Positions 6,147 through 53,886 of a stretch of DNA of 64,000 bases are shown here, one piece after another. The notes under the pieces were generated by a model. The model was not told the DNA's origin and made no database searches. It saw only the letters and a list, made by a program, of their open reading frames with translations. The stretch is from Planotetraspora silvatica (GTDB lineage Bacteria > Actinomycetota > Actinomycetes > Streptosporangiales > Streptosporangiaceae): positions 124,001-188,000 of the forward strand of contig NZ_BOOQ01000024.1 in NCBI RefSeq assembly GCF_016863315.1, read 5' to 3'. Both the position numbers and the translations under genes were made by a program. Every line of letters starts with the position of its first letter. The stretch's first letter is position 1.

Positions 6147-7316
6147 TCAGGAGACGAGCGGTATGCGGAGGACGAAGCACGCGCCACCATCGACGGATTC
6201 TTCGACGTGCAGAGTGCCGTAGTGGGCGGAGGCGATGTCACGGGCGATGGCCAGGCCCAGACCGGCGCCTCCGCGGTCGCGGCCGCGGGCCGTGTCCAGA
6301 CGGACGAAGCGCTGGAAGATGCGGTCGCGGTCGTCCGGGCGGACACCTTGCCCGTCGTCGGCCACGGCCAGCTCCGCGTGGTCACCGGTGCGGCGCAGGT
6401 CCACCCTCAGTCTGCGCGAGGCGTGACGTCGGGCGTTGTCCAGCAGGTTGGCGAGCAGCCGGGTGATCTGCCACGAGTCCGCCCCCACCGTCACCGCGCG
6501 CTCGAGATCGAGCCGCACGTCACAGCTCCCGGTCCACCGAGCCGCCACTGCCTCGACCAGACTCGTCAAATTCACCTCCTCCAGTCTTGCGTCGAGGTCG
6601 ACCTCGAGCGTGGCCAGCAGGAGCAGGTCGTCGATGATGTTCTCCAGCCGGTCGAGGTCGGCGGTCAAATGGTCGAGCAGATCGGGCATGTCGATGTCGT
6701 CCGGGTGCAGTTGCGCCTCCTCCACCTGCAGCCGTAGCGCGGTGAGCGGCGTACGCAGCTCATGTGAGGCGTCCGCGGTGAATTGGCGTTGGCGGCGCAG
6801 CAACTGCTCCGCATACGTAGTCGCCTTCCTCACCTGCTCGTTCAGCTCTTGCATCTCCCTGGCGTGCGCGCTCGTCCGGCTCACGCCGGATCGAGTCCTT
6901 CTCCGCTGTTGAAGGAACGCGGACATGTCCTCCGTACGGTGGACGAACAGCACCACTGCTCCGTCCGAGCCGAGCACAGGCGAATTGATCATGCTCCAAC
7001 AGTGGGCCTCGGACCGGTGTGCGCCGCGGGAGATGGGCATGGCGCACTTGTGCGGCGCCATCACGTCGGGTTTGCCCGTGGCTTCGGCCCGGCGCAGAGA
7101 CGCCTCGAGGTTCCGCAGCGCGCGCTGCTTGACCGGATCGGCGTGGTCGAGGGCGCAGGAGTCGAGCACGTGCCGGCCCAGCAACTCCTCTCGCCGACGT
7201 CCGTGGGCGTCGAGATATGCCTGGTTGACGGCCACGATGGTCATGTCCGGCGTCATGGCCAGACAAGGGCTCGGAACGGCCGCGAACAGGGCGGCGTAGT
7301 CGAGGTTCTGCCTCAT
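6147..7316 (-). CDS. Soluble PAS-domain sensor histidine kinase
   Basis: 389 residues. A PAS domain spans about 10-135 (MTPDMTIVAVNQAYLDAHG, WSMINSPVLGSDGAVV), then a helical linker, the HisKA box FTADASHELRTPLTALR with phosphoacceptor His175, and a HATPase_c domain with LANLLDNARRHA (N box), ADDGQGV and GGAGLGLAIA. There is no transmembrane segment, so the signal is probably cytoplasmic, such as redox or a ligand. No response regulator is adjacent. ATG at 7316 has GGAAGGAA upstream; the frame stays open further but without a better start. An ECF41-type promoter at 7518-7544 points toward it with a leader of about 195 bases. It is a paralogue of the truncated kinase at 1-574. Confidence 0.85.
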   Translation of the reverse strand: MRQNLDYAALFAAVPSPCLAMTPDMTIVAVNQAYLDAHGRRREELLGRHVLDSCALDHADPVKQRALRNLEASLRRAEATGKPDVMAPHKCAMPISRGAHRSEAHCWSMINSPVLGSDGAVVLFVHRTEDMSAFLQQRRRTRSGVSRTSAHAREMQELNEQVRKATTYAEQLLRRQRQFTADASHELRTPLTALRLQVEEAQLHPDDIDMPDLLDHLTADLDRLENIIDDLLLLATLEVDLDARLEEVNLTSLVEAVAARWTGSCDVRLDLERAVTVGADSWQITRLLANLLDNARRHASRRLRVDLRRTGDHAELAVADDGQGVRPDDRDRIFQRFVRLDTARGRDRGGAGLGLAIARDIASAHYGTLHVEESVDGGACFVLRIPLVS

Positions 7317-7517
7317 CGGTTCCTTCCAAGCGCGCTCAGCAGGGCTCGGGAATCCATCACCCTGTGCAGGTGTCGCTCCGAACCTCAGGCGTCCGGAGCG
7401 GCCGGACCTGCGAGAGGAAGTCGCAGGACGAAACGTGGATTGGCGGCGTACCCCCGGCCCGCCACGATCTTCGGGCTTGTCGGGGGGCCATCCGCTGTCA
7501 TATGGATACGCAGCTAT

Positions 7518-7544
7518 GACAAGACAGCCCTGCGGCCTGTGACA
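7518..7544 (-). promoter_or_regulatory. ECF41-type promoter facing the PAS kinase
   Basis: On the minus strand the sequence reads TGTCACA, 16 bases, TGTC. The published ECF41 consensus is TGTCACA-N16-CGTC. The last seven spacer bases are GCTGTCT, matching the two other copies in this island. The predicted transcription start is near 7511. Confidence 0.6.
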
Positions 7545-7699
7545 GCTTTGACAAAGCGCCATTGATCCGGCTCCCGGTTCGGCGTTGTCACTGATCGGAA
7601 TGCCGCCCGTCTCCCGCGGCACTCACGCCGCGCGTTCCGTGGGCGGGAGCCGCCCGTCCGCGACGCGGCGGCAAGGACTGAAAGAGGTTCGCCGACAGC

Positions 7700-7726
7700 T
7701 GTCACAAGCACGGAGGCTGTCCTGTC
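7700..7726 (+). promoter_or_regulatory. ECF41-type promoter facing the cupin
   Basis: TGTCACA, 16 bases ending in GCTGTCC, then TGTC. It lies about 85 bases before the cupin start codon and overlaps the GACAGCTGTC palindrome, which could let a second regulator block it. Confidence 0.6.
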
Positions 7727-7810
7727 TTTCCTGGCGAACCGGTCGGCAACGGGGGAGTGGCGCGCCCTCGCCCGGGTTTCATCGCCACCAGTTCACGAAA
7801 GGTAGGTCCC

Positions 7811-8248
7811 ATGTCCGATATCGACCCGGCATCCACCGGGCCCAAGCCGAGATCAGTCGCCTGGCAGACCGCGGTCACCGTGCTGCAGGAGGCCGAACCG
7901 CCGTTCATCCCGCAGGGAGCGCACGCGATGACCTTGGTCGTCGCGTACCCGCCCGGCGACCCGGGCACGCCGCCGCACCGGCACTCGGGGCCGGCGTTCG
8001 GCTACGTGCTGGAAGGGGAGATGCTGTTCGAGTTGGAGGGCGAGCCGGAGCGGGTCGTCCGCGCCGGTGAGGTGTTCTGGGAGCCGGGTGGCGACGTCAT
8101 CCACTATCAGGACGGCAACAACCGCGACGACATGCCGCTCCGCTTCACCGTCACGATGCTGTGCGAACCAGGCCAGCCGATGCTCACCCTGGTGGGCGAC
8201 CAGGAGCTCGCCCAGCGCAAGGACCGTCGCGCTCCTCGCCCGTCCTGA
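7811..8248 (+). CDS. Cupin-domain protein
   Basis: 145 residues forming one small beta-barrel cupin. Motif 1 is PPHRHSGPAFGYVLEGEMLFEL and motif 2 is AGEVFWEPGGDVIHYQDG; the histidines and glutamate of motif 1 with the final His are the usual metal ligands. The family covers dioxygenases, isomerases and sensors, so the reaction is not predictable. ATG at 7811 has GAAAGGTAGG upstream. It follows an ECF41-type promoter and precedes the iron-sulfur fusion protein, so an oxidative or metal-stress role is plausible. Confidence 0.85.
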   Translation: MSDIDPASTGPKPRSVAWQTAVTVLQEAEPPFIPQGAHAMTLVVAYPPGDPGTPPHRHSGPAFGYVLEGEMLFELEGEPERVVRAGEVFWEPGGDVIHYQDGNNRDDMPLRFTVTMLCEPGQPMLTLVGDQELAQRKDRRAPRPS

Positions 8249-8423: not shown

Positions 8424-10184
8424 ATGAAACAGCAGCAAGGATCGGCCGTTCCGGGTTCGTCGGTGCGGATCGACACGCTCGACGGCCTTCGTGAGCATCT
8501 GCAGTGGGCGATCGAGTTGGAACATGCGACGTTGCCGCCTTACTTATGTGCGTTGTATTCGCTGGACCCGGAGCGGAATCCGGAAGCCGTGGATGTGGTG
8601 GGCGGCGTCTTCGTCGAGGAGATGTTGCATCTGACGTTGGCGGCGAACCTGTTGAACGCCGTCGGGGGCCGCCCGCGGCTGGACATGCCGGGGATGTTGC
8701 CGTCGCATCCGCGGCGGCTGCCGCATGGCGATCGGTCTTTGGAGTTGTCGCTGCTTCCCTTCGGCGGGGAAGCGCTTGAGATGTTCTTGCGGATCGAGCG
8801 GCCGGCGCCGCCTGGTGCTGCGGCGGAGGGCGAGGACTACGAGACGATCGGGCAGTTCTACGACGCGATCGAACAGGGATTACGCCATCTGTGCGACCGG
8901 CTCGGGGAGCGGGAGGTCTTCAGCGGTGATCCGGTTCGCCAGGTGGACGCCGGTCACTTCCGGCACACCGCGGGGCGGTTGATCGCGGTCACGGATCTGG
9001 CGTCGGCGCTGGCGGCGTTGGAGGAGATCGTCGAGCAGGGCGAGGGTACGGCCCGCGGTGAGGTGTGGGACGGCGACCGGGACGTCTGCCATCCTGATCG
9101 GGATGAGGTGGGGCACTTCTACCGGTTCCAGGAGCTCAAGGTGGGCCGGCGGTACCGGCGTGGGGACACGCCTCAGTCCGGCCCCACCGGCGAGGCGATC
9201 TGCGTGGATCTCGACGGTATCCGTCCGATGAGACGCAACCCGAGGCTGGCCGATCATGCCGTGGGCAGTGCGATCCGTACGGCTCAGGAAGAGTTCAACC
9301 ACACTTACTGCGCCATCCTTCACCTGCTGGAACAGGCGTTCAACGGCAGCCCGAAGCTGCTCGCCGTCGCCACCGGCACCATGTTCGCGCTCAAGGCCCA
9401 AGCCCAGGCCCTGATGCGGATGCCCGATGAAGGAGGCGCGACGGCCGGCCCCACCTTCGAATACGTCGCCCCCGACCTGCGCCGGTGGAGTGTCGGAGAC
9501 TCACAGCGGATCGTCGTCCTCCGCGACGGCCCTTACATCGTCTACGGCGGTGTGCCGCTCCGGCGCAAAACCAAGATCGTCTCTACGGAGAACAACGCGC
9601 TGACCTGGAAAACCGGCCGGCCTCTGAAAACCGAGGACACCTACGCGCTGTGCCGCTGCGGCCACTCGGGCTCCAAACCGTTCTGCGACGGGACCCATGC
9701 GGTGATCGGGTTCGACGGCACGGAGACCGCGGGGGTGCGACCGTACAAGGAACTCCAGCACGTCCACGACGGGGTGGGGATCTCGGCTCAGCGGGTGGGG
9801 GAGTTGTGCATCCATGCCGCCTTCTGCATCGGACGCACCAGGCCGATCGCCGAGATGCTCGCCGACACCGGCGACAGCGACGTGCGGTCCGACGTCATGG
9901 GTCGCATCGATCACTGCCCCTCCGGCTCTTACAGCTATGCCCTCCAGCGGGGCGGCGACGTGCTCGAGCCCGATCTTCCCGAGGCCGTCTCGATCCTGGA
10001 GGAAGAGGACGGGCTGGCCAGCGCGCTGTGGGTCACCGGCGGAGTGCCGGTCCTGCGGGCGGACGGCCAGGCACTGGAGACCCGCAACAGGATGACCCTG
10101 TGCCGTTGTGGCCATTCGGGCAACAAACCGCTGTGCGACGGAACCCACCGAGAGATCGACTTCCGCGAGGAGACACCGGGCTGA
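8424..10184 (+). CDS. Ferritin-like (VioB/RebD-type) domain fused to two CDGSH iron-sulfur domains
   Basis: 586 residues. Residues about 10-350 are a ferritin-like domain of the iminophenyl-pyruvate dimer synthase type, with E/H pairs such as AIELEHATLPPYLC, EEMLHLTLAANLL and EEFNHTYCAIL. Residues 410-425 (CRCGHSGSKPFCDGTH) and 560-575 (CRCGHSGNKPLCDGTH) are two full CDGSH [2Fe-2S] sites. Between them, GELCIHAAFC and HCPSGSYSYAL resemble the divergent mono-cluster ferredoxin domain often joined to CDGSH. The likely role is redox or iron handling; no violacein-type partners are present. Codons 41 and 153 are TTA and early third positions are less GC-rich than in neighbours, hinting at bldA control or transfer. 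The ribosome site is weak (GGAG 14 bases upstream). Confidence 0.85.
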   Translation: MKQQQGSAVPGSSVRIDTLDGLREHLQWAIELEHATLPPYLCALYSLDPERNPEAVDVVGGVFVEEMLHLTLAANLLNAVGGRPRLDMPGMLPSHPRRLPHGDRSLELSLLPFGGEALEMFLRIERPAPPGAAAEGEDYETIGQFYDAIEQGLRHLCDRLGEREVFSGDPVRQVDAGHFRHTAGRLIAVTDLASALAALEEIVEQGEGTARGEVWDGDRDVCHPDRDEVGHFYRFQELKVGRRYRRGDTPQSGPTGEAICVDLDGIRPMRRNPRLADHAVGSAIRTAQEEFNHTYCAILHLLEQAFNGSPKLLAVATGTMFALKAQAQALMRMPDEGGATAGPTFEYVAPDLRRWSVGDSQRIVVLRDGPYIVYGGVPLRRKTKIVSTENNALTWKTGRPLKTEDTYALCRCGHSGSKPFCDGTHAVIGFDGTETAGVRPYKELQHVHDGVGISAQRVGELCIHAAFCIGRTRPIAEMLADTGDSDVRSDVMGRIDHCPSGSYSYALQRGGDVLEPDLPEAVSILEEEDGLASALWVTGGVPVLRADGQALETRNRMTLCRCGHSGNKPLCDGTHREIDFREETPG

Positions 10185-10190
10185 CGGCGG

Positions 10191-10217
10191 TGTCACACCA
10201 GGACGTGCTGTCCCGTC
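10191..10217 (+). promoter_or_regulatory. ECF41-type promoter of the sigma-like gene
   Basis: TGTCACA, 16 bases ending in GCTGTCC, then CGTC: an exact match to the published ECF41 promoter consensus. The predicted start near 10224 gives a 29-base leader containing AGAGG before GTG 10253. The flanks also pair (GGTGTCAC with GTGACACC, 10189-10232), so a hairpin is possible in read-through RNA. Confidence 0.7.
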
Positions 10218-10252
10218 TTAGCTGGTGACACCAAGACGACAGAGGACCTCGT

Positions 10253-11092
10253 GTGGACGATCTCGTCAGCCGGCGCTCGCGCCGGCCGATCAACGGCCTG
10301 GGAACGGGAAGGGCCTGTCTGCTTCCACCGGCACCCTCCTGGCCGCACGGCCGGCGAGGGCGGCAGGACATGACCGAGGCGGGCGCCAGGTCGCTGGCGG
10401 AGATGCTCGACGAACGCCGGCACCTGCTCGAGATCGCTCTGTGGATGTTCGGTTCGGCCGCCACGGCCGACCTGATCGTCCAAGAGACCTATCGCCGCTG
10501 GTACGCCCTCAACGATGAGGAGCGTGCCGGCATCGCGGTGCCGCGAGCCTGGCTGACACGGGTCGCCGGAGGCATCTGCCTGGAATCGCTCGCCACGCCC
10601 GCCGCCTTCCGGCCCCCCAGTGCCGCACCGAGGTCGGACTCGGCCTCGGCACCTGTCGCCGACGGCCCGGTTCTTCGCGGCGGCGCGGCACGGCACGTCT
10701 CAGGTCGGCCCACGTTCCGGAAGGCGATGCTCGACAGGCATGATCGTGTCGCGCGCCGGTTCGCGGCGGCGTGCGGCACCGGAGACGTGGCGGCGCTGAA
10801 GGCGGTCCTGGCCGCCGAGGCGCTGGTCGTGAGTGACGGCGGCGGCAAGCTGCGCACTTCAGTGCGTCCGACCTACGGCGCGGACGCCGTCGCCCGGTTC
10901 ATCGCGGCTTTGCTGGCCGGTCCGCCCGACATCCTGGTGACCATCGAGTCCGTCAACGGCCGTACTGGTCTGGCGCTGAGGAGGGCGGGCCGCGCTGTGG
11001 CAGTGGTCAGCGTGAGCGTCGCCGGGGACGAGGTCACCGCTGTGTGGATCGTGCTGAACCCCGACAAGTTGCATCGCTGGCATCGCCCATGA
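10253..11092 (+). CDS. ECF41-like sigma protein lacking region 4
   Basis: 279 residues. An N-terminal region 2-like stretch (RHLLEIALWMFGSAATADLIVQETYRRW) and an ECF41-type SnoaL C-terminus are present; the latter keeps SDGGGK near residue 200 and NPDKL near the end. Between them, where complete ECF41 proteins such as 52966-53886 carry the region 4 helix-turn-helix and the WLPEP linker motif, there is only a Pro/Ser/Ala-rich stretch of about 45 residues. Without region 4 it should not recognise a -35 element alone; it could be an anti-activator, a ligand sensor or a decaying gene. GTG 10253 fits the promoter and AGAGG site; ATG 10370 is an alternative. Confidence 0.7.
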   Translation: MDDLVSRRSRRPINGLGTGRACLLPPAPSWPHGRRGRQDMTEAGARSLAEMLDERRHLLEIALWMFGSAATADLIVQETYRRWYALNDEERAGIAVPRAWLTRVAGGICLESLATPAAFRPPSAAPRSDSASAPVADGPVLRGGAARHVSGRPTFRKAMLDRHDRVARRFAAACGTGDVAALKAVLAAEALVVSDGGGKLRTSVRPTYGADAVARFIAALLAGPPDILVTIESVNGRTGLALRRAGRAVAVVSVSVAGDEVTAVWIVLNPDKLHRWHRP

Positions 11093-11147: not shown

Positions 11148-11630
11148 GTGAACGACTCGATGCTCTCTCCGGATCATGACGACGGCGGCACCGCGTTCAA
11201 CCCGATCTACATCGGTCACGTCGCCGTCAGCGGCGGCAGCTCCGCCCACGGTCGGGCCACCGGCAAGGCCCGCTCCGCCGACGGCGCCCTCGACGTGGAA
11301 CTGCGGATGCCCAGGGAACTGGGCGGCGACACCATCGGCCCGAACCCCGAGCAGCTCTTCGCCGCCGGATACGCCGCGTGCTTCCACGGCGTCCTCAGCC
11401 TGGTGGCCCGGCAGCATCTCCTCGACCCCGGCTCCATCGTCGTGGAGGCGACCGTCGCCCTCGGCCGTGACCCCGACGACGCTGGTTACCAGTTGCGAGC
11501 CGACCTCGTCGTGATCTGGCCTGGAGTCGAGCGGGAGTCGGCCACCCCGCTGCTCGCGCAGGCGAGCGCGCTGTGCCCCTACGCGAAGATGACCCGCCAG
11601 GGCATCCCCGCCACGATCAGCCTCGCCTGA
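11148..11630 (+). CDS. ohr: Organic hydroperoxide resistance protein (Ohr/OsmC family)
   Basis: 160 residues. Ohr proteins reduce organic hydroperoxides using two cysteines; both are present, Cys78 in GYAACFHG and Cys143 in ALCPYAKM. The N-terminal signature GKARSADGALDVELRMP and GPNPEQLFAAGYA is typical of Ohr rather than OsmC. GTG 11148 has AAGGGG upstream. It follows the sigma-like gene by 55 bases and probably belongs to the same stress island. The 3' end overlaps the convergent epimerase gene by 14 bases. Confidence 0.9.
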   Translation: MNDSMLSPDHDDGGTAFNPIYIGHVAVSGGSSAHGRATGKARSADGALDVELRMPRELGGDTIGPNPEQLFAAGYAACFHGVLSLVARQHLLDPGSIVVEATVALGRDPDDAGYQLRADLVVIWPGVERESATPLLAQASALCPYAKMTRQGIPATISLA

Positions 11631-51766: not shown

Positions 51767-52969
51767 ATGAGCACTCGGCACGAAGCCGGCAGGGCCGCGC
51801 ACCGCGTTCTGGTCCTGGGGGCGGGGTACGCGGGCATGGCCGCGGCGATCCAGCTCGCGGCGCGGGTCAAGCGGCGCGAGGACGTGCGGGTGACCCTGGT
51901 GAACCCGCAGGAGCGGTTCACCGAGCGGCTGCGGCTGCACCTCTCGGCGACCGGGCAGCAGGTCGCCGAGATGGACATCCCGGAGCTGCTGGAAGGCACG
52001 GGTGCGCAGTTCGCCCGTGGCTGGGTGACGGCGGTGGACCCGGACGCGAAGACCGTCCGGATCGACGACGACCGGGTGTTGCACTACGACACGCTGGTGT
52101 ACGGGCTGGGCAGCTTGGCCGACACGGCGGCGGTGCCGGGCGTGGAGGATCACGCCTACAACCTCGACAGCGTCCAGGACGCCGAGGTGCTGGCCGACCG
52201 GTTGGCCCGGCTCGGCCGCGGCACGGTCGTGGTCGGCGGCAGCGGGCTGACCGGCGTCGAGTCGGCCGCGGAGATCGCCGAGCGGCACCCGGAGCTGAAC
52301 GTCGTGCTGCTGGGACGGCGGGAACCCGGTGCGGCCATGACCCCGAAGGCCAAGGCGTACCTGCAGGCCGCGCTCGAACGCCTGAACGTCCACGTGCGCG
52401 GCGGGATCGAGGTGGTGAAGGTGCTGCCCGGCTCGGTCGAGCTGGCGGGCGGGGAGAGCATCGCCGCCGATGTCGTCCTGTGGACGAGCGGCACGCGGGT
52501 GTCGCCGCTGGCGGCCGCCGCGGGTCTGACCGTCGACGAGCGCGGCCGCATCGTCACCGACGCCGCGCTCCGGTCGGTGTCACACCCGGACGTGTACGCC
52601 GTGGGCGACGCGGCCGCGATCCGCCAGGGCTACGGCGTCATGCACGGCACCTGCCAGGGCGGCATGCCGACCGGGGTGCACGCCGCCGTGTCGATCTTCC
52701 GCACGCTGAACGGCAAGCAGCCCAAGCCGTTCCGCTTCGGCTATTACCACACGCCGGTGAGCCTGGGACGGCATGACGCGGTCGTTCAGTTCACCCACCC
52801 CGACGACAGCCCGCGGCGGGTGCATCTGACCGGCCGTATCGCGGCACGGTATAAGGAGACGGTGACCGCCTCCCCCTGGCCGACTTACGGCCGCATGAAG
52901 AAGATGCCGGCCTCGGGCGCGTTCTGGCCCCGCGGCGGCCGCTTCACCCGTATCCGGGGCGTGCGGTGA
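51767..52969 (+). CDS. FAD-dependent NAD(P)H oxidoreductase (NDH-2-like)
   Basis: 400 residues. FAD-binding GAGYAGMAAAIQLA at the N-terminus, NAD-binding GGSGLTGVESAAEIAE near residue 155 and the second FAD motif DVYAVGDAAAI. It resembles type II NADH dehydrogenases and FAD-dependent pyridine reductases without a clear membrane helix. ATG 51767 has AGAGAGG upstream. Its stop overlaps the GTG of the ECF41 sigma gene; ECF41 factors are typically linked to such oxidoreductases. Confidence 0.87.
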   Translation: MSTRHEAGRAAHRVLVLGAGYAGMAAAIQLAARVKRREDVRVTLVNPQERFTERLRLHLSATGQQVAEMDIPELLEGTGAQFARGWVTAVDPDAKTVRIDDDRVLHYDTLVYGLGSLADTAAVPGVEDHAYNLDSVQDAEVLADRLARLGRGTVVVGGSGLTGVESAAEIAERHPELNVVLLGRREPGAAMTPKAKAYLQAALERLNVHVRGGIEVVKVLPGSVELAGGESIAADVVLWTSGTRVSPLAAAAGLTVDERGRIVTDAALRSVSHPDVYAVGDAAAIRQGYGVMHGTCQGGMPTGVHAAVSIFRTLNGKQPKPFRFGYYHTPVSLGRHDAVVQFTHPDDSPRRVHLTGRIAARYKETVTASPWPTYGRMKKMPASGAFWPRGGRFTRIRGVR

Positions 52970-53886
52970 CCCACGTGTCTCCGGACCACGACCAGCAGGT
53001 GTTCAACGAGCATCGCAACCTGCTCTTCTCCGTGGCCTACCGCATCCTCGGCAGCGCGGCCGATGCCGAGGACGCGGTCCAGGACGCCTGGATCAAATGG
53101 TCGGCCGCCGACCGTTCGCAGGTGACCGATCCCAAGGCGTACCTGGCGCGGATCGCGTCGAACCTGGCGCTCGAACGGCTGCGCTCGACCCGGCACCAGC
53201 GCGAGACCTACGTCGGGCCGTGGCTTCCGGAGCCCATTCTCACCAGCGGCGACACCGCCGACGACATCACCGGCGCCGAGTCCGTGTCGATGGCGATGCT
53301 GGTGGTGCTGGAGACCCTGAGCCCGCTCGAGCGCGCGGTGTTCGTGCTGAAGGAGATCTTCGACTTCGGCCATGCCGAGATCGCGGAGGCGGTCGGGCGT
53401 TCCGAGGTCGCGGTGCGCCAGGCCGCGCACCGCGCTCGCGAGCACGTGCGGGCCCGGCGGCCGCGCTTCACCGCGGACCGGTCGCGGCAGCGCGACGTCA
53501 CCAAGCGCTTCCTGGCGGCCGCGACCGGAGGGGACATCAACACCCTCATGGAACTGCTGTCTCCTGATGTCACGCTGTGGACCGACGGCGGCGGCAAGGT
53601 CCGCCAGGCCCTGCGTCCGATCATGGGCGCGCAAATGGTGGCCGCCTGGTTCGCCGCCATCGGCAAGGTCACCTACCAGGGCGTCGAGCCCGCCGACATG
53701 AACGCCGAACTGGTCGAGATCAACGGCGGCCCGGGCATGGTGTTCAGCGGCCCGGGTCGTGTGATCGCCACGGTCACCTTCGACTTCGACGCCGACGGCC
53801 GCATCATCGCCGTCCACAACGTCGCCAACCCCGACAAACTCCAGGCCGTCGCCGGCGGGACCACCCACGACGTCAGCACGCCCTGA
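52966..53886 (+). CDS. sigJ: ECF41-group sigma factor with SnoaL domain (SigJ-like)
   Basis: 306 residues. Region 2 (LLFSVAYRILGSAADAEDAVQDAWIKW), linker with WLPEP, region 4 (LSPLERAVFVLKEIFDFGHAEIAEAVGRSEVAVRQAAHRAREHV) and a SnoaL domain holding WTDGGGK and NPDKL, the ECF41 hallmarks. In this group the C-terminal domain replaces an anti-sigma factor. It is coupled to the flavoprotein gene (GTGA overlap). It is the only complete ECF41 factor here and so the best candidate to read the TGTCACA promoters at 7.5-10.2 kb. Confidence 0.9.
   Translation: MTHVSPDHDQQVFNEHRNLLFSVAYRILGSAADAEDAVQDAWIKWSAADRSQVTDPKAYLARIASNLALERLRSTRHQRETYVGPWLPEPILTSGDTADDITGAESVSMAMLVVLETLSPLERAVFVLKEIFDFGHAEIAEAVGRSEVAVRQAAHRAREHVRARRPRFTADRSRQRDVTKRFLAAATGGDINTLMELLSPDVTLWTDGGGKVRQALRPIMGAQMVAAWFAAIGKVTYQGVEPADMNAELVEINGGPGMVFSGPGRVIATVTFDFDADGRIIAVHNVANPDKLQAVAGGTTHDVSTP

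Follow-up and report, generated by a model that had tools for sequence, protein, structure and literature searches.

ECF41 sigma factors form a large ECF group that reportedly lacks an obvious anti-sigma gene and in which the factor's own C-terminal domain exerts control (PMC3426412). Part of this SnoaL extension is needed for activity and the rest restrains the factor, and the extension controls both activity and RNA polymerase binding (PMC3426412). The NPDKL motif of ECF41 has been linked to the WLPEP motif of the linker (PMC7730460). Second proteins that act beside a sigma factor have been described for other groups. RsfG is the anti-sigma of the ECF56 factor SigG1 and has no conserved Pfam domain (PMC7730460), PhyR is a sigma-like protein that controls a sigma factor and does not act as one (PMC8103513), and in SigO-RsoA the sigma gene has next to it a gene for a protein with region 2 and no region 4 (PMC8103513).

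Here we analyse an ECF41-like protein without region 4, the companion, which is encoded in a 64,000-nucleotide stretch of Planotetraspora silvatica DNA (the window, taken at its full length). A literature search, with many subscription papers outside its reach, found no report of such a protein. With ECF41 factors such as SigJ of M. tuberculosis and Ecf41Bli, the companion shares the region 2 fold, a SnoaL domain with DGGGK and NPDKL, an ECF41 promoter and NmrA/epimerase-type neighbours; unlike them, it has neither region 4 nor the WLPEP linker, its region 2 is altered, and it accompanies an intact ECF41 factor, its partner, as a second protein. Because region 4 and WLPEP were looked for and are missing, the companion is not an ECF41 sigma factor in the strict sense; it is an ECF41-derived protein that probably works like a regulator of an ECF41 factor. 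It resembles RsfG as a co-encoded second protein that would control a SnoaL-bearing ECF factor, and differs from it in being derived from ECF41 itself. Like PhyR, it is sigma-like and is proposed to control a sigma factor rather than to act as one, whereas PhyR binds the anti-sigma NepR and carries a receiver domain, which Pfam detects in none of 48 companion members. Like RsoA, it has region 2, lacks region 4 and lies beside a sigma gene in most relatives, but its partner, unlike that in SigO-RsoA, has both regions 2 and 4.

Results

The companion gene occupies positions 10370 to 11092 of the forward strand and encodes 240 residues. An initial annotation had placed its start at GTG 10253; the start has to be moved to ATG 10370, from which the relatives align and upstream of which stops in the relatives close the GTG 10253 frame. 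The annotation had also read the protein as one that lost region 4 and kept region 2 and a SnoaL domain with DGGGK and NPDKL, and in this the domain and probe searches bear it out. Residues 1 to 75 (10370 to 10594, forward strand) form a sigma region 2-like domain that is weak but real, and diverged: it scores 22.0 bits with Pfam Sigma70_r2, slightly below the cut-off of 24. Residues 123 to 240 (10736 to 11089, forward strand) form the SnoaL domain (Pfam SnoaL_2, 31 bits, over the cut-off of 27), with DGGGK at 10835 to 10849 and NPDKL at 11057 to 11071. Pfam finds no region 4 in the protein, and probes from 86 ECF41 proteins detect no remnant of it beyond chance in any frame between 10150 and 11300, although all 86 match the ECF41 gene at 52966, which served as the control. 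WLPEP is likewise absent from the window companion. In place of this motif and region 4, where some 45 low-complexity residues had been annotated, we find a low-complexity linker of 47 residues (76 to 122; 10595 to 10735, forward strand), the core of which is predicted to be disordered (pLDDT below 50 at residues 84 to 109). The AlphaFold2 model as a whole (mean pLDDT 84, pTM 0.75) shows confident region 2 and SnoaL folds, with pLDDT mostly above 90 in region 2. By NCBIfam, both ends of the protein are nearest to SigJ-type factors; the best solved relative by sequence profile is SigJ (5xe7, E 1e-22), Foldseek ranks SigJ and SigG1 at the top for the model, and in VIA-align SigG1 leads, above SnoaL/NTF2 folds.

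A search of 343 family genomes at E<=1e-24 recovers companions in 53, a count that includes a few non-orthologous ECF41 matches. Among the same-genus relatives compared (P. mira, P. thailandica, P. phitsanulokensis and P. kaengkrachanensis), orthologues are 82-90% identical in three species and frameshifted in P. kaengkrachanensis; identities of 57-75% are seen in Nonomuraea, Streptosporangium, Herbidospora, Actinomadura, Actinoallomurus, Actinopolymorpha, Actinophytocola and one Kribbella. The architecture is thus shared by genera of soil actinobacteria, usually beside an intact ECF41 gene and with a promoter of the same type. A frameshift or sequencing error that masks region 4 was considered and rejected, given the lack of a remnant above chance in any frame and an architecture common to relatives. 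Relatives with an intact region 4 at this locus, which had been named in advance as speaking against the annotated reading, do not occur; because none has region 4 here and dozens of species share the architecture, a strain-specific deletion is excluded as well.

In a tree, 48 companions without region 4 and 13 SnoaL-only forms make up one clade (FastTree support 96), which sits next to intact SigJ-like factors and spans Streptosporangiaceae and other actinobacterial families. Sigma70_r2 is detected in 41 of the 48 orthologues at E<=0.1, WLPEP is absent from all 48, and DGGGK and NPDKL are present in most, including the window companion. Region 4 is recognisable in a single member, that of Streptomyces geranii (locus L121), and a remnant is left in one other Streptomyces (L125). 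These two genes (L121 6001-6837, L125 5169-5939) carry a decaying region 4, and each faces a partner-type ECF41 gene tail to tail; they are plausible intermediates in the loss of region 4. A SnoaL-only protein remains in other Kribbella, Catenulispora and Paractinoplanes, and the Kribbella form is the reduced end of the series. In Kribbella loci L143, L145, L148, L151 and L152 (at about 6331-6711) the SnoaL-only gene comes right after an intact ECF41 gene, with a GTG start after GGAGGTGAC, 12 nt past the ECF41 stop.

Ratios of dN/dS are mostly 0.1-0.4 for region 2 (0.11-0.23 within Planotetraspora), 0.2-0.66 for SnoaL and 0.45-1.17 for the linker. The folded parts are thus kept while the replacement of region 4 drifts: judged by these ratios, purifying selection acts on region 2 and SnoaL, and the linker is nearly neutral. 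Within region 2, the [DE]AED motif is changed to [TA]A[DE], basic residues of region 2.4 average 2.9 in companions versus 5.9, and region 2.2 has a near-invariant VQETYRRW stretch.

Upstream of the gene lies the ECF41-type promoter, TGTCACA-N16-CGTCTTAGC (10190 to 10222, forward strand), which is conserved before companion genes. It contains a strict TGTCACA-N16-CGTC at 10191 to 10217, a pattern for which chance predicts 0.26 occurrences per window. The published consensus consists of TGTCACA, a spacer of 16 +/- 1 and CGTC (PMC3426412). The footprint TGTCACA-N16-[GCT]GTCTTAGC, found upstream of 24 of 51 companion genes, matches this consensus except at the first base of the -10 element. Because most relatives carry [GT]GTC rather than CGTC, a search with the strict consensus returned few sites, and a matrix built from aligned sites was used in its place. 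Trained solely on companion-gene sites and scanned over the loci, the matrix gave 75 matches versus 0.0 expected and placed the same promoter about 80 nt upstream of 32 of 33 neighbouring NmrA-like genes, sites that provide an independent check on the matrix. In the window, a second promoter of this type precedes a cupin gene (7699 to 7731, forward strand, 25.4 bits) and a third faces a divergent PAS histidine kinase gene (7513 to 7545, reverse strand, 25.2 bits). Elsewhere in the genome, the same promoter type is found at an NmrA gene (contig C50) and at a kinase-ECF41 pair (contig C37), in which a kinase related to that of the window lies directly before the ECF41 factor.

The cupin gene (7811 to 8248, forward strand; Pfam Cupin_2) and the upstream neighbour, a gene for a ferritin-like/CDGSH iron-sulfur protein (8424 to 10184, forward strand; Pfam Ferritin-like and zf-CDGSH), recur near 27 and 23 of 56 companion loci, respectively. 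The next gene downstream, for an Ohr/OsmC family peroxiredoxin (11148 to 11630, forward strand; NCBIfam TIGR03561, 121 bits), recurs near 23. The PAS histidine kinase (6147-7316, reverse strand; Pfam), divergent from the cupin-ferritin genes, may belong to the same circuit as the companion. An NmrA-like gene is near 41 of the 56 loci; the window has none, and contig C50 carries a copy preceded by the promoter. Near this copy lies a second ferritin-like gene (L210 494-1648), which is near-identical to part of the window's and lacks the CDGSH part. The window further encodes an ECF41 factor of canonical type (52966-53886), which has WLPEP, DGGGK and NPDKL and the start of which overlaps the preceding gene's stop by 4 nt; in the tree, it falls on another branch.

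Between promoter and companion lies a leader ORF of 40 codons (10251 to 10373, forward strand) with a GTG start and an AGAGGA ribosome site, in a frame that differs from the companion's. Its TGA (10371-10373) overlaps the companion ATG as ATGA, and its GTG at 10251 is conserved. Overlap and frame are kept in 17 loci (the window and 16 related ones) with leaders of 20-58 codons, the lengths of which differ by indels in multiples of three. The pattern applies to companions with a promoter of their own; L095 breaks it, and L106 hinges on the start chosen. Synonymous and non-synonymous divergence of the leader codons are equal, which rules out a conserved peptide; with codons free of selection at the protein level, the leader looks like a device that couples the companion start.

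In most genera, the companion lies directly downstream, on the same strand, of an intact ECF41 gene with WLPEP. The partners form a different ECF41 branch from the companions (FastTree support 100), which rules out that the companion is a tandem duplicate of its neighbour. In the family list of 47 companions, a partner is located upstream of 37 and is within 300 nt in 30 of these cases; an exact 4-nt overlap of the two genes is seen at 13 loci. Conversely, each of the 21 closest partner genes has a companion downstream on the same strand, at 4.5 kb or less. The arrangement differs in Mycolicibacterium, where the companion comes first and overlaps, and in Streptomyces, where the genes are tail to tail, which suggests that the pairing reflects a functional link and not inherited order alone. 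An adjoining sigma gene, as expected of an anti-sigma gene, is thus found in most relatives and not at the window locus: the window genome and P. mira have no partner beside the companion, P. phitsanulokensis retains a partner fragment, and by this comparison of sequences the partner at the window locus is lost. Contig C37 of the window genome carries an intact, unpaired ECF41 factor that, because it belongs to the partner clade, is the likely partner here.

Domain quality in companion and partner is complementary. Measured against the other ECF41 factors of the window genome, the median scores for region 2, region 4 and SnoaL are 118, 88 and 71 in partners, 48, -2 and 103 in companions, and 101, 103 and 103 in the nearest intact ECF41 factors. 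Regions 2 and 4 are strong in all 27 partners scanned, their DGGGK lacks the lysine, and NPDKL mostly reads NPAKL/I. Within the partner clade, paired members have lower SnoaL scores than the five unpaired copies (70 versus 81, p=0.002, a value that overstates independence because the sequences are related). Pairing does not account for all of the SnoaL change, because the DGGGK lysine is also missing in unpaired members such as the C37 factor. When a Kribbella partner and its SnoaL-only companion were modelled as one in-frame chain, the prediction reached a pTM of 0.40 with no confident docking.

Discussion

How might a sigma-like protein without promoter recognition act on transcription? In ECF41 factors, contact of the SnoaL domain with the linker or with SnoaL normally occurs within one chain. 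The companion keeps NPDKL and DGGGK and has no linker motif of its own, which is explained most simply if its SnoaL domain works on a separate ECF41 factor. We consider it reasonably probable that the companion is an ECF41-derived regulator that acts in trans through its SnoaL domain, probably in a negative feedback. We envision that this domain would contact another, intact ECF41 factor at its WLPEP linker or its SnoaL domain; this factor would be the neighbour in most species and the C37 factor in the window genome. Because the companion is under the same ECF41-type promoter as the target genes, feedback would follow, most likely negative, and would make ECF41 activity depend on a signal that the SnoaL domain perceives. 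Ligand sensing by the companion is plausible. From the sequence data we infer the physical contact itself, the factor that would read the promoter, the sign of the effect, a ligand and a role for region 2. The conserved promoter, the pairing with ECF41 and purifying selection speak for the suggestion in the initial annotation that the gene is expressed and encodes a regulator.

Conceivably, the companion might be a SnoaL-fold enzyme or small-molecule binder of a detoxification cluster, co-expressed and non-regulatory, with region 2 as a leftover or a fold-stabilising element. Its SnoaL domain does have the NTF2/ketosteroid isomerase fold, and redox and detoxification genes are its neighbours. 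We regard this as rather unlikely, however, given that the ECF41-specific DGGGK and NPDKL are retained, that selection acts on region 2, and that the gene is coupled to a sigma factor gene rather than to enzyme genes. The initial annotation had raised competition for RNA polymerase as one possibility, besides ligand sensing. In that case, the region 2-like domain would bind core without promoter contact and act as a decoy in competition with the ECF41 factor. That region 2 is the most constrained part within Planotetraspora and that VQETYRRW is so well kept would suit such a role, but SnoaL is always kept while region 2 is lost in Kribbella, Paractinoplanes and others, region 2 has shed the canonical [DE]AED and some basic residues, and conservation of SnoaL would need a separate reason; we thus deem the decoy unlikely and do not favour it. 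Very unlikely is a functionless paralogue in slow decay: the frameshift in P. kaengkrachanensis and partial deletions in Microtetraspora, Acrocarpospora and Spongiactinospora would fit, yet dN/dS is far below 1 in both folded domains for nearly all pairs, promoter and coupling are conserved, and a single clade extends across several families. What these lesions do imply, together with persistence where no partner is adjacent, is that the companion is not essential. A two-subunit sigma factor in the style of SigO-RsoA, for which the companion would give region 2 and the partner region 4, accords with the companion's domain content and is highly improbable, since regions 2 and 4 are both strong in every partner scanned and the companion's region 2.4 has lost basic residues.

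The trans-acting regulator that we prefer might stand for a new class of sigma regulator, a proposal we advance tentatively and at slightly less than even confidence: an ECF41 protein without promoter recognition would supply SnoaL function in trans to an ECF41 factor with a weakened SnoaL domain, so that a one-protein circuit is split over two. A conserved second protein with the same SnoaL domain would naturally separate the sensor from the sigma factor, and both the signal and the contact between SnoaL and linker would become testable as an interaction of two proteins.
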